A stretch of 64,000 nt of DNA, taken from positions 124,001-188,000 of the forward strand of contig NZ_QKZO01000005.1 in assembly GCF_003254295.1 (NCBI RefSeq), in the 5' to 3' direction. The notes under the pieces are model-generated. The model saw only the letters and a list, made by a program, of their open reading frames with translations. It ran no database searches and was not told where the DNA came from. Positions 56,715-60,495 of this stretch are shown here, one piece after another (within the stretch, counting starts at the first letter, position 1; each line of letters begins with the position of its first letter). The stretch comes from Rhodobacter capsulatus. Its GTDB lineage: Bacteria; Pseudomonadota; Alphaproteobacteria; Rhodobacterales; Rhodobacteraceae. The position numbers and the translations under genes were made by a program.

Positions 56715-57667
56715 CGATTGCGGTTCTGGGGGCGGGCGCTTTCGGCACGGCGCTGGCGATATCGCTCGCCCAACGCGGGCCGGTGCTGCTTTGGGCCCGC
56801 GATGCCGCCCATGTCGCCGAGATGCGCGAAAGCCGCCGCAATGACCGCCGTCTGCCCGGGGCCGTGCTGCCCGAGGCCCTGACCGTCACCGACCGGATCG
56901 CGGATGCCGCGGGCTGCGAGGTGGTTCTGCTCGGCGTGCCGATGCAGAAGATGGGCGGGTTTCTGAGCGAAAACGCCGGGTTGCTTGACGGCAAGGTGCT
57001 GGTCTCCTGCTCGAAGGGGATCGATCTGGAGACCGGGCGTGGCTCGGTCGCGCTGATCGAGGCGGCCTGTCCGGGCGCCTTGGCCGCCGTGCTGACCGGG
57101 CCAAGTTTCGCCGCCGATATCGCCCGCGGCCTGCCCACCGCGCTGACCTTGGCCTGCCGGAGGGACGCGCCCGCTCTGCAGGCGCAGCTTTCCACCCCGA
57201 CCTTGCGGCTTTACCGCACCACCGACACGATCGGCGCCGAACTGGGCGGGGCCCTGAAGAATGTCATCGCGATTGCGGCCGGGGTGGTGATCGGGGCAGA
57301 CTTGGGCGATTCCGCCCGTGCCGCGCTGATGACGCGCGGCTTTGCCGAGATGAACCGGCTGGCGATGAAACTGGGCGCCCGGCCCGAGACGCTGATGGGG
57401 CTTTCCGGCTTTGGCGATCTGGTGCTGACCTGCACCTCGTTGCAATCGCGCAACTTTCGTTACGGGATTGCGCTGGGCAGCGGGTCCGCCTTTGATCCCG
57501 GCGTGACGGTCGAAGGTGCCGCCACGGCGCGGGCGGTCACCGGACTGGCGCGGGACCACGGCATCGAGATGCCGATCGCCGCGATGATCGCCGCGCTTTG
57601 CGCGCAAAAGATATCCGTTGCCGACGCCGTTACGGCGCTGCTCTCTCGCCCGCTGAAGGAGGAATGA
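56711..57667 (+). CDS. gpsA: Glycerol-3-phosphate dehydrogenase [NAD(P)+]
   Basis: Reduces dihydroxyacetone phosphate to sn-glycerol 3-phosphate for phospholipid synthesis. The 318-residue protein has the Rossmann motif [10 protein letters not shown] near residue 7, [10 protein letters not shown] near 97, the catalytic-lysine region [14 protein letters not shown] near 178, and [12 protein letters not shown]. Its start overlaps the tsaD stop (ATGA). It is followed without gap by the YciI-like gene. Confidence 0.95.
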
Positions 57668-57937
57668 ATGCTTTACGCCGTGATCTGCAAGGACAAGCCC
57701 GGGGCGCTGCAAACGCGGCTCGACACCCGCGCCGCGCATCTGGCCTATATCGAGACGACCGGCATCGTGAAAATGGCCGGGCCGTTTCTGGAGGGGGGGC
57801 AGATGTGCGGTTCGCTGGTGATTCTGGACTGCGAGAGCCTGGACGCCGCGCAGGCCTGGGCGGCGGGCGACCCCTATGCGGCAGCCGGTCTGTTCGAATC
57901 GGTCGCCGTCACCGAATGGAAAAAGGTGATCGGCTGA
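57668..57937 (+). CDS. YciI-like protein
   Basis: An 89-residue protein of the YciI family, ferredoxin-like fold proteins sometimes linked to small-molecule catalysis. Visible are YAVICKDKPGALQTRLDTRAAHLAYIE with a conserved histidine near residue 27, the GPFLEGG loop near 41, and the aspartate-containing end DPYAAAGLFESVAVTEWKKVIG. Its function here is unknown. It follows gpsA at once, and its stop overlaps the EVE gene start (TGATG). Confidence 0.85.
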   Translation: MLYAVICKDKPGALQTRLDTRAAHLAYIETTGIVKMAGPFLEGGQMCGSLVILDCESLDAAQAWAAGDPYAAAGLFESVAVTEWKKVIG

Positions 57938-58356
57938 TGGCGAAATGGCTCTTCAAATCCGAGCCCGACGTCTGGTCCTGGGACATGCAGGTGGCCAAGG
58001 GCGCGGAGGGCGAAGAGTGGCATGGGGTGCGCAACTATCTGGCGCGCAACAACATGCGGGCGATGCAGCTGGGCGATCAGGGGTTCTTCTACCATTCCAA
58101 CATCGGCAAGGAGGTCGTCGGCATCGTCGAGGTCTGCGCGCTGAGCCATCCCGATTCGACCACCGAGGATCCGCGCTGGGATTGCGTCGACATCCGCGCG
58201 CTGCGGCCCTTGAAGACGCCGGTGACGCTGGCCACGGTCAAGGCCGATCCGCGGCTGGCGCAGATGGCGCTGGTGACCTCGATGCGGCTCTCGGTGCAGC
58301 CGGTGACGGAAGAGGAATGGAAGATCGTCTGCGACCTGGGCGGGATCGATCCCTGA
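57937..58356 (+). CDS. EVE domain protein
   Basis: A 139-residue protein made of one EVE domain, a PUA-like fold proposed to bind modified DNA or RNA bases. It begins MAKWLFKSEPDVWSWDM, with WHGVRNYLARNNMRAMQLGDQGFFYHSN near residue 28 and GIVEVCALSHPDSTTEDPRWDCVDIRAL after it. A role in nucleic-acid modification recognition is inferred from the fold. It is the last gene of the tsaD-gpsA-yciI-EVE run. A 311-base gap follows. Confidence 0.88.
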   Translation: MAKWLFKSEPDVWSWDMQVAKGAEGEEWHGVRNYLARNNMRAMQLGDQGFFYHSNIGKEVVGIVEVCALSHPDSTTEDPRWDCVDIRALRPLKTPVTLATVKADPRLAQMALVTSMRLSVQPVTEEEWKIVCDLGGIDP

Positions 58357-58403
58357 GCCGATCGCGCTGCGACCCTCACGCCAGGAAACGCAAGCGCCCC
58401 CCG

Positions 58404-58443
58404 AAAAAACCGGAGGGTCCCGGCACCCCTACCAGGACCCTCC
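58404..58443 (-). terminator. Minus-strand intrinsic terminator
   Basis: A 9-base-pair stem (58412-58420 with 58435-58443) with an inner G-C pair and a GTAGGGG-containing loop is followed on the minus strand by GG and six T residues (58409-58404). No gene on the minus strand ends here, so it should end a noncoding transcript. Confidence 0.75.
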
Positions 58444-58540
58444 TTCACCCCACGTGCTCCCCTACGCACCACACGTGAAACTGTTATCGGGTCCTGGCCA
58501 TACTGGCCGTGGCACCCTTTCTACGGGAATGGGTGATTCC
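58404..58540 (-). ncRNA. Candidate structured small RNA between the EVE and CbiX genes
   Basis: Upstream of the terminator on the minus strand lies a second hairpin (58444-58479) with outer stem TTCAC/GTGAA, an internal loop of 5 by 5 bases, inner stem GTGC/GCAC and apical loop GTAGGGGA. Both apical loops therefore show GTAGGGG. Further small hairpins (GGCCA/TGGCC near 58496-58508 and GGGAAT/ATTCCC near 58519-58537) lie upstream. No open frame with coding character fits. Upstream end and promoter are not certain. It is unlike any RNA family I can name with confidence. Confidence 0.4.
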
Positions 58541-58667
58541 CCGCAATCGCGCAGTCTGAACAATATGATGCAATTTCAGGGGCTTGTTCGCAGGGATTGG
58601 TTAACTATGCCAAGGCGGCGCGCGGCGGCCGACTTGTCGGGCCGGGCTTTCGCGCTAGGTCTTACGC

Positions 58668-59330
58668 ATGTCCGATTTCATCCTCGTCGCCCATGGCTTC
58701 CCCTCGAACCCCGATCCGGCCGAGGCCGCGCTGACCGCGCTGGCGCAGCAGGTCGGCGCGCGCCTGCCCGGGGTGCGGGTGCTTGCGGCGACGCTGGCGA
58801 AACCCGGGGCGCTGGCCCGCGTGCTGGAAACTCTGCCCCGGGCGCGGATCTATCCCTTCTTCATGGCCGAGGGCTGGTTCACCTCTCGGCAATTGCCGCG
58901 ACGGCTGGCCGATCTGGGCAGCCGGGCCGAGATCCTCTCGCCCTTCGGCGCCGATCCCGGCCTGCCCGCGCTGGTGATCAAGACCGTGGCCGAGGCGGGG
59001 CCGGGCGATCTGATCCTTTGTGCGCATGGCTCGCAGGTGGCGCGCAGCTCGCGGATGGCGACGATGGCGATGGTCGAGCGAATCGGCGCCCATCTGCCCG
59101 GTCGGCGCATCGCGGCGGCCTTTCTCGAGGAAGATCCGCATCTGCGCGACATTGCGGCGCAGCATCCCGAGGCGATCTGTCTGCCCTTTTTCGCTCTGCG
59201 GGCCGGTCATGTCGCGCAGGACATTCCCGAAGCGCTTGCCCGGGCGGGGTTTCGCGGCCGGCTGCTGCCCGCCATCGGCGAGCGCCCGGAGGTCGCCGAT
59301 CTGATCGCCGCCGCGCTGCGCCGGGCCTGA
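58668..59330 (+). CDS. CbiX/SirB-like chelatase-family protein
   Basis: A 220-residue protein of the sirohydrochlorin chelatase family, which inserts cobalt or iron or nickel into tetrapyrroles. It has two similar halves. The metal-site histidines are visible in VAHGFPS near residue 8 and CAHGSQVAR near 117; PFFMAEGWF and PFFALRAGHVAQDIP are matching segments in the two halves. It is alone, not next to cobalamin genes, so its metal and substrate are unknown. The start at 58668 is the first ATG of the conserved N-terminus (MSDFILVAHG). Confidence 0.75.
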   Translation: MSDFILVAHGFPSNPDPAEAALTALAQQVGARLPGVRVLAATLAKPGALARVLETLPRARIYPFFMAEGWFTSRQLPRRLADLGSRAEILSPFGADPGLPALVIKTVAEAGPGDLILCAHGSQVARSSRMATMAMVERIGAHLPGRRIAAAFLEEDPHLRDIAAQHPEAICLPFFALRAGHVAQDIPEALARAGFRGRLLPAIGERPEVADLIAAALRRA

Positions 59331-59337
59331 CGAGCGT

Positions 59338-59377
59338 TTGTCACGCAGCTGTCATATTTCTTTTGCATAAGCGTCAC
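59338..59377 (+). promoter_or_regulatory. pstS: Pho box with four heptamers at 11-base spacing, pstS promoter
   Basis: Heptamers TTGTCAC (59338), CTGTCAT (59349), CTTTTGC (59360) and GCGTCAC (59371) are each followed by four spacer bases, the 11-base period of PhoB sites. The second heptamer is the consensus. A -10-like TAGAGG at 59388-59393 sits 10 bases after the array, as in PhoB-activated promoters. It should activate pstSCAB under phosphate limitation. Confidence 0.8.
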
Positions 59378-59439
59378 GACCCGAGCCTAGAGGGGTTGCC
59401 AAGGTCTTAACGGCCCTTCCAGATCTTCAGGAGTGATCC

Positions 59440-60495
59440 ATGACTTTCGTGAAATTCGGCGTCTCGGCGCTTGCCATCGTTGCCGCCTCGGCCACCGGTG
59501 CCGCCGCGCGTGACCAGATCCAGGCGGCCGGTTCTTCGACCGTCCTGCCCTATGCCACCATCGTCGCCGAAGCCTTCGGCGAAAACTTCGACTTCAAGAC
59601 CCCGGTCGTCGAAGGCGGCGGGTCGGGCGCGGGCCGCAAGAAGCTGTGCGAAGGCGTGGGCGAAAACACCATCGACATCGCCAACTCGTCGTCGCGCATC
59701 AAGCAATCCGACATCGACACCTGCAAGGCGAACGGCGTCGAGGACATCATGGAAGTCCGCATCGGCTATGACGGCATCGTCTTCGCCTCCGACATCAAGG
59801 GCCCGGACTTCGCCTTCACCCCCGCCGACATCTTCGGCGCGCTCTCGGCCACGGTGGTGAAGGACGGCAAGCTTGTCGACAACACCGCCAAGACCTGGGC
59901 CGAGGTGAACGCCAAGCTGCCCGCGCAAGACATCCTGACCTTCATCCCGGGCACCAAACATGGCACCCGCGAGGTCTTCGACATCGAAGTGCTGGAAGAA
60001 GGCTGCAAGGCCACCGGCGCCTATGATCTTTACATGGCGAGCGCCGAAGGCGCCGACGAGGATGCGAAGAAGAAAGAAGCCGTGAAGAAATGCGGCACGC
60101 TGCGCACCGATGGCGTGGCCGTGGACATCGACGGCGACTACACCGAGACGCTGTCGCGCATCGACGCCAACAAGAACGCCATCGGCGTCTTCGGACTGTC
60201 GTTCTACCAGAACAACACTGACAAGCTGCGCGTCGCCACCATCGACGGCATCGTCCCCTCGACCGAATCGATCGCCAAAGGCGATTATCCGGTGTCGCGT
60301 CCGCTCTACTTCTACGTCAAGAAGGCGCATCTGGGCGTGATCCCGGGCCTGAAGGAATTCATCACCTTCTTCGTCTCGGACGAGATGGCCGGTCCGGAAG
60401 GCCCGCTGGCCGCTTACGGCCTTGTTTCGGACCCGGAACTGGCCGCGACCCAGGCGATGGTCGAGGCGGAAACCCCGATGGCGCCGCTGAAATAA
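59440..60495 (+). CDS. pstS: Phosphate ABC transporter, periplasmic binding protein
   Basis: PstS captures phosphate with high affinity in the periplasm. The 351-residue product has a signal peptide ending near GAAA (residue 22). The conserved phosphate-site segments are AAGSSTVLPYATIVAEAF near residue 30, VVEGGGSGAGRKKLCEG near 53 and IDIANSSSRI near 75. TKHGTREVFD contributes the arginine. AAGSSTV, GGGSGAG and GTR-type motifs bind phosphate oxygens. A hairpin follows the stop. Confidence 0.96.
   Translation: MTFVKFGVSALAIVAASATGAAARDQIQAAGSSTVLPYATIVAEAFGENFDFKTPVVEGGGSGAGRKKLCEGVGENTIDIANSSSRIKQSDIDTCKANGVEDIMEVRIGYDGIVFASDIKGPDFAFTPADIFGALSATVVKDGKLVDNTAKTWAEVNAKLPAQDILTFIPGTKHGTREVFDIEVLEEGCKATGAYDLYMASAEGADEDAKKKEAVKKCGTLRTDGVAVDIDGDYTETLSRIDANKNAIGVFGLSFYQNNTDKLRVATIDGIVPSTESIAKGDYPVSRPLYFYVKKAHLGVIPGLKEFITFFVSDEMAGPEGPLAAYGLVSDPELAATQAMVEAETPMAPLK

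Follow-up and report, generated by a model that had tools for sequence, protein, structure and literature searches.

A predicted small RNA of Rhodobacteraceae that may exchange an upstream helix for its own terminator

What does an intrinsic terminator end when no gene leads into it? The question is raised by a locus of Rhodobacter capsulatus, in a stretch of 64,000 nucleotides (contig NZ_QKZO01000005.1, forward-strand positions 124,001 to 188,000) that we call the window, where the gap between two plus-strand genes carries such a terminator on the minus strand. An initial annotation, made from the letters of this stretch, had proposed a small structured RNA here, extending over 58404-58540, with a second hairpin ahead of the terminator and a loop motif common to both. 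The terminator stands as described: a 14-bp stem (58443-58412) followed by six T (58409-58404), in the gap between the EVE and CbiX genes. The extent is revised, the predicted RNA running from about 58511 to 58404, with 58546-58518 being promoter-like. The parts of the locus are as follows.

57937-58356, plus strand: EVE-domain protein gene (PF01878, E 2.4e-46), convergent with the RNA and a neighbour only
58404-58409, minus strand: U6 tract of the intrinsic terminator, six T shortly after the stem
58404-58511, minus strand: predicted small RNA, ~108 nt (promoter-like hexamers and covariance model match)
58412-58443, minus strand: terminator hairpin T, 14-bp stem (covariation, and a terminator call in the window)
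58440-58432, minus strand: 5' arm of T, also the 3' strand of putative helix H, complementary to the linker 58497-58489
58451-58477, minus strand: hairpin P2, CACGUG 58477-58472 with CACGUG 58456-58451 (covariation, RNAalifold)
58471-58457, minus strand: apical loop of P2, UGGUGCGUAGGGGAG
58489-58497, minus strand: linker J1/2, including the final base(s) of P1; sequence CCAGGACCC; 5' strand of putative helix H
58496-58508, minus strand: hairpin P1, GGCC-AGUAU-GGCC (covariation)
58518-58523, minus strand: -10-like element TAGAAA, spacer 17 to the -35-like element
58541-58546, minus strand: -35-like element TTGCGG (TTG/TA hexamer comparison across loci)
58668-59330, plus strand: CbiX gene (PF01903)

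Folding of the minus strand from 58560 to 58395 (166 nt) gave -76.5 kcal/mol, as compared to a mean of -63.8 for shuffled sequences (z -3.29), and 1 of 200 dinucleotide shuffles folded as well. Relatives were then compared in two alignments. The first, A1, holds 104 sequences from 122 loci, after removal of one that was too short and 17 that were more than 90% alike position by position. Named genomes had been scanned with a pattern for the P2 core; this pattern scan returned at least 115 stretches, of which 80 were made into loci (L079-L158), and supplied 77 of these 104 rows. A1 consequently overstates the invariance of that core, and the extreme P2-core conservation seen in A1 was not relied upon. 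A covariance model, R1, was built from A1 with the pairs of P1 and the terminator only, leaving the P2 core unforced. The second alignment, A2, takes one R1 match from each of 96 chosen sources (the window, 60 fetched loci that are mostly weaker hits, and 35 others, nine of these 35 from the pattern scan), which leaves 87 rows from outside the scan. The covariance model matches the window locus, itself among the building sequences, at 58392-58518 with 106.5 bits; in genome G002, P1 begins at 3,714,473 (plus strand) and CCGGUUUUU at 3,714,568.

The initial annotation had looked to compensating changes in relatives as support for an RNA, and these are seen in P1, P2 and the terminator: the stems keep their pairing through such changes and are conserved across a family, which upholds the proposal of a small structured RNA. 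On A2, 94.2% of the cells in the three helices are paired and 19 of 23 pairs show changes on both sides, with a covariation score of 0.436 as compared to 0.079-0.136 when the structure is slid along the alignment. Each helix contributes: firstly, P1 is paired in 95.8% of cells, with both-sides changes at 2 of its 4 pairs; secondly, P2 (CACGUG:CACGUG and one U-G) has such changes at 5 of 7 pairs, in 38 cells; thirdly, all 12 counted pairs of the terminator stem have them. The outer U-G pair of P2 is unpaired in 49 of the 96 sequences and is unsupported. Compensations visible in P2 include CGCGUG:CACGCG, CACAUG:CAUGUG, CGUGUG:CACACG and CACGCG:CGCGUG, and RNAalifold, run unprompted on A1, chose the same CACGUG pairing. 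Among the 87 A2 rows from outside the scan, the mean majority fraction is 85% in P1, 86-87% in the P2 strands, 77% in the P2 loop, 74-77% in the terminator arms and 65% in the linker. The P2 region keeps GGUG in 81 and GGGAG in 52 of these rows, while its loop ranges from 9 to 21 nt across loci, a variation that would speak against coding.

The second hairpin had been drawn differently in the initial annotation, with paired 5 by 5 internal loops. This form does appear in the single-sequence minimum-energy fold, but the comparison favours CACGUG:CACGUG, made from the same bases. On A2 the outer stem of the 5 by 5 form is paired in 68.4% of cells, and both-sides changes occur at 3 of 9 pairs, in 25 cells: one cell at pair 46/105, one at 59/89 and 23 at the terminal pair 45/106, where 56 sequences lack pairing. 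Of the four inner pairs, three (GUG:CAC) hold in about 96% of cells, but only one cell shows a change on both sides. Since it covaries far less than CACGUG:CACGUG, we rejected the 5 by 5 hairpin as a conserved structure. The 110-nt minimum-energy fold of the RNA predicted in the window nonetheless places the P2 region in the 5 by 5 pairing and not in CACGUG:CACGUG, and the two P2 hairpins are therefore close in energy. By eye, an inner stem of the GGUGC:GCGCC type seems to replace the CACGUG stem in five divergent loci (L032, L225, L231, L259 and L266), and there is a hint, from these sequences, that divergent members have two interchangeable P2 folds.

Less survives of the shared loop motif. 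GTAGGGG is indeed present twice, in the second hairpin (58465-58459) and in the terminator hairpin (58432-58426); in the latter, however, the predicted fold draws GTA into the stem and leaves GGGG alone in the loop. The motif occurs in both hairpins in 8 of the 104 A1 sequences and 7 of the 96 A2 sequences, and is thus lineage-specific, whereas the initial annotation had named its conservation as support for an RNA. Because the shared motif is not conserved, the suggestion that it serves repeated binding of a protein or of mRNA is unsupported, and GTAGGGG was rejected as a functional repeat.

Does this RNA have a promoter of its own? A TTG and a TA element, correctly placed upstream of P1 with 15-19 nt between the hexamers, were found in 85 of 95 loci, as compared to a mean of 7.1 and a maximum of 15 loci by the same criterion in 200 letter shuffles; the spacing is 17 or 18 in 78 of those 85. 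The hexamers look sigma70-like, and from their position we infer that transcription would start near 58511, 6-7 nt after the -10-like element. A scan with a stricter consensus over the window stretch 57500-59500 returned no promoter. At the other end, at least 5 T fall within the 8 nt just after the terminator stem in 75 of the 95 loci. Farther upstream, at distances of about 55 and 66 nt from P1, lie two T-rich positions, one helical turn apart (T in 63-68% of relatives; ~58563-58574 on the minus strand in the window); conserved as they are, they resemble an UP element or a regulator site.

The distribution of the RNA was followed in genome draws of increasing breadth. Within the genus, 17 of 18 genomes give some blastn match at E<=1 and 13 of 18, counting the genome of the window, a strong one (E<=1e-16). 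The family draw comprises 295 Rhodobacteraceae genomes, nearly one per genus; blastn matches 98 of them at E<=0.001, model R1 matches 190 at E<=0.01 and model R2 matches 198. Since 97 of the 295 family genomes are without an R2 match and 5 of the 18 genus genomes without a strong blastn match, the RNA can be lost or diverge past detection. Model R1 matches 111 of 149 genomes in the order draw, all 111 listed as the same family, and 3 of 240 in the class draw, all of that family and the genome of the window among them. With R2 the class draw gives 9 matches in 289 genomes, 4 of them in the same family (again including the genome of the window) and 5 in other families among 285 genomes, the latter at E 0.0017-0.0099 and near chance, about 3 being expected from the threshold. 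Sequence titles from the pattern scan agree: among the matches listed, two (L131 and L147) give only a phylum or class, and the others name Rhodobacterales, Rhodobacteraceae, Paracoccaceae or individual genera that we take to be members of these groups. Together, these searches suggest that, within the genus, family, order and class draws, the RNA is confined to the family Rhodobacteraceae in the broad sense. The five genus genomes without a strong match (G004, G005, G008, G010 and G012, the last 81% complete) are possibly a natural loss series.

Is the family a known one? The initial annotation had recognised none, and Rfam 15 (4227 families), searched over the whole window at gathering scores, returns one tRNA (52114-52042) and nothing in the gap. 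At a permissive threshold two matches fall in the gap, with E values of 0.72 and 0.91. The first is sX12 (RF02231), a Xanthomonas sRNA that likewise consists of a hairpin followed by a GC-rich terminator and has the best of these weak scores; it scores 18.2 bits where the gathering score is 106, which is chance level. The predicted RNA thus belongs to no family of the catalogue searched. Rli55 and EutX are riboswitch-controlled stand-alone sRNAs whose length is set by a choice between terminator and antiterminator; the predicted RNA would resemble them in that choice but matches no riboswitch family of Rfam.

Among RNAs already described, StsR (RSs2461) is an orphan trans-encoded sRNA of Rhodobacter, from the same family of bacteria. 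It acts by pairing with another RNA (PMC8307010) and is described as co-transcribed with RSP_0847, an ompR homologue, from an RpoHI/II promoter (PMC3320616). The present RNA, by contrast, adjoins EVE and CbiX or DUF2853 and has sigma70-like hexamers; judged by context only, identity with StsR was rejected. UpsM, the 5'-leader sRNA of the dcw cluster, is made by partial termination (PMC8625941); its helices are kept across Rhodobacteraceae, and its authors discuss a possible riboswitch-like function, though one that they think is not conserved in the family (PMC5089854). UpsM precedes the genes that it leads into, whereas no family-wide sense gene is recognised downstream of the present RNA. 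The HRC-8-4 motif is a structured RNA of Rhodobacterales only, with terminator architecture and conserved loop nucleotides, situated between ccoNOQP and ccoGHIS or upstream of hvrB (PMC8632094); the present RNA adjoins EVE instead. An sRNA of Paracoccus denitrificans, 'intergenic 134', was also considered as possibly the same RNA, because it has Rhodobacterales relatives and shares its context with an R. sphaeroides sRNA (PMC5107571); similarity to it is reported in Actinobacteria and Chloroflexus as well (PMC5107571), whereas our draws reach from the genus to the class. Searches of article texts brought up no description that could be linked to the present RNA. Supplementary sRNA lists for R. 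sphaeroides, R. capsulatus, R. pomeroyi or P. denitrificans, or that of a 26-genome survey, may contain it unnamed, and individual transcripts may have been seen earlier without recognition as a family.

The feature that is new here concerns the linker after P1, which by sequence comparison is predicted to pair with the 5' arm of the terminator and co-varies with it. In the window the linker 58497-58489, CCAGGACCC, is the exact complement of the arm at 58440-58432. In a set of 92 distinct linker/arm pairs, duplexes of a linker with its own arm average -13.4 kcal/mol and those with foreign arms -10.5 kcal/mol, and none of 20000 permutations, which ignore relatedness, reaches the observed mean. 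The own linker was also set against the linkers of the three most similar sequences with another linker: it paired better 176 times out of 285, worse 103 times and equally well 6 times, and the gain averaged 1.6 kcal/mol; this nearest-neighbour test is weaker than the permutation and points in the same direction. On A2, the 7 counted pairs of helix H are paired in 79.5% of cells and 4 of them show both-sides changes, and the covariation score is 0.274 as compared to 0.053-0.096 when slid. If one counts instead how many pairs change on both sides, 11 of 500 shuffles (which likewise ignore relatedness) do as well as the observed H structure. Both H strands depart together in L123, L252, L261 and L277.

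Predicted folds give the same picture. When transcripts are folded as they would stand just after synthesis of the 5' arm, H is predicted (at least 5 pairs) in 93 of 95; exchanging linkers between species lowers this to a mean of 74.4 (68-78), and shuffling the letters of the linker to 43.1 (35-54). At full length, T is predicted (at least 8 pairs) in 88 of 95. For the RNA predicted in the window, prefixes lengthened by 5 nt at a time fold into H and the CACGUG hairpin while they measure 80-100 nt; at 105 and 110 nt they show the terminator. The sequence is thus predicted to fold one way during synthesis and another once finished, and antiterminator and terminator exclude each other, as they do in an attenuator, by the measure of comparison and predicted folds.

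We consider that this locus probably encodes (at a probability of roughly 0.6) a stand-alone, co-transcriptionally switching orphan regulatory sRNA of Rhodobacteraceae, with its own sigma70-type promoter and intrinsic terminator. P1 would form as the predicted RNA emerges; the linker CCAGGACCC would then pair with GGGUCCUGG, the segment that later serves as the terminator's 5' arm, so that helix H encloses P2. The emerging 3' arm of the terminator would displace the linker, T would form and transcription would stop. The exchange of H for T would set the timing or the completeness of RNA release. The finished RNA would present P2, with the GGUG found in nearly all relatives and the GGGAG found in over half, together with the freed linker. 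It might act in trans, its G-rich P2 loop and flank pairing with a C-rich RNA or binding a protein, and the U-tail might serve as a handle for Hfq. A search of the 18 genus genomes for the complement of the P2 loop, CTCCCN1-5GCACCAC, found 17 places outside the locus and 73 for a reversed control; the long complement being below the control, an RNA target, if there is one, would use a shorter seed.

The neighbourhood bears on what such an RNA could control. EVE lies near the RNA in 111 of 122 loci. Among the matches listed for the 80 named loci, some of them ended by a contig edge, 73 have it convergent and downstream of the RNA, its distance to the P2 core being 76-1276 nt, and a convergent DUF1761 gene lies downstream and nearer than EVE in 23. 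Upstream, among the same listed matches, DUF2853 stands in the sense of the RNA in 60 of 80, AhcY likewise in 46, and a divergent CbiX in 5 only; one locus has AhcY downstream, on the other strand. EVE, CbiX, DUF2853 and DUF1761 were checked, and AhcY was named by us from its sequence. The divergent CbiX of the window occupies the place held by DUF2853 and AhcY in many other genera. Among the matches listed, 77 loci have at least 700 nt downstream; in 69 of these no non-shadow sense frame of at least 70 residues begins within 600 nt, and in 8 there is a putative one. From this frame scan and the downstream context we conclude that no family-wide sense gene follows the RNA; the regulated sense gene expected downstream of an attenuator or riboswitch was not recognised in these loci.

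Of the alternatives to a switching orphan sRNA, the best placed, in our view still unlikely, is a structural RNA, made constitutively, whose role would be to bind or titrate a protein, helix H guiding its folding without regulating anything. The conservation of P1 and P2, the largely kept context, the housekeeping-type hexamers and the T-rich positions upstream all speak for it, but linker sequences vary and yet keep their pairing to the terminator arm. After it we would place, as improbable also, a regulated attenuator without a sense target, in which a ligand or protein on P2 in the H form would block T and send antisense read-through onto whichever gene converges there, EVE or DUF1761. In its favour, H and T exclude each other and have both been kept, and in most named loci, among the matches listed, the first gene recognised downstream is a convergent EVE or DUF1761; against this, the EVE distance varies and DUF1761 is often the nearer, so that a fixed antisense target is not conserved, and P2 is no more conserved than P1 outside the pattern-chosen rows. 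Doubtful to a greater degree is a signal-sensing orphan RNA whose P2, in the H form, would bind a metabolite or protein and so choose between the 108-nt sRNA and a longer antisense RNA into EVE or DUF1761; as a first guess, the signal might be a metabolite of the methylation cycle, because the RNA often lies downstream of ahcY and DUF2853 in other genera. Because the pattern-chosen rows inflate P2 conservation, we gave both the read-through and the sensor readings less weight and the structural RNA more.

We regard it as very unlikely that the locus is a plain terminator with promoter debris and lacks an RNA function of its own, as a bidirectional terminator of EVE would: the terminator is there and the same hairpin sits downstream of EVE on the plus strand, but on that strand it is followed by TTCACCC, with no T run, and conservation is not limited to the terminator but includes P1, P2, H and the promoter-like hexamers. 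Hardly credible, with hairpin content as its one point in favour, is a mobile-element remnant, which the initial annotation had named as a refutation, or a misread 6S or 4.5S RNA: a 321-base query finds one full-length match in its own genome, a single copy, with 34 further short matches (15-35 bases, best E 0.294), no phage, plasmid or repeat match explains the RNA (none in the phage and plasmid collections at E<=1e-5), and no covariance model match to 6S RNA (RF00013) or bacterial small SRP RNA (RF00169) lies at the locus. A 6S-like RNA is located elsewhere in the genome, at G000:C1:302495-302652 (45.9 bits, just under the cut-off of 46.4), and a 4.5S RNA over its cut-off at G000:C1:15318-15416.

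Rhodobacteraceae include well-studied phototrophs and marine bacteria. If the switching orphan sRNA is real, about two thirds of the sampled genera of this family carry an uncatalogued RNA family, mostly in the same place. Attenuators normally control a sense gene, and a conserved antiterminator is, to our knowledge, an uncommon feature in descriptions of orphan sRNAs; an antiterminator:terminator pair kept with no recognised sense gene behind it would thus be unusual, and would offer a test case for the control of sRNA genes at their own terminators. Were the sensor reading true instead, one family-wide RNA would be sensor, sRNA source and antisense regulator at once.

In the family draw several genomes, G130, G147, G077 and G123 among them, carry two or three model matches each, G123 having three with model R2; in G130, G147 and G077 the extra copy at a contig edge is perhaps an assembly duplicate.
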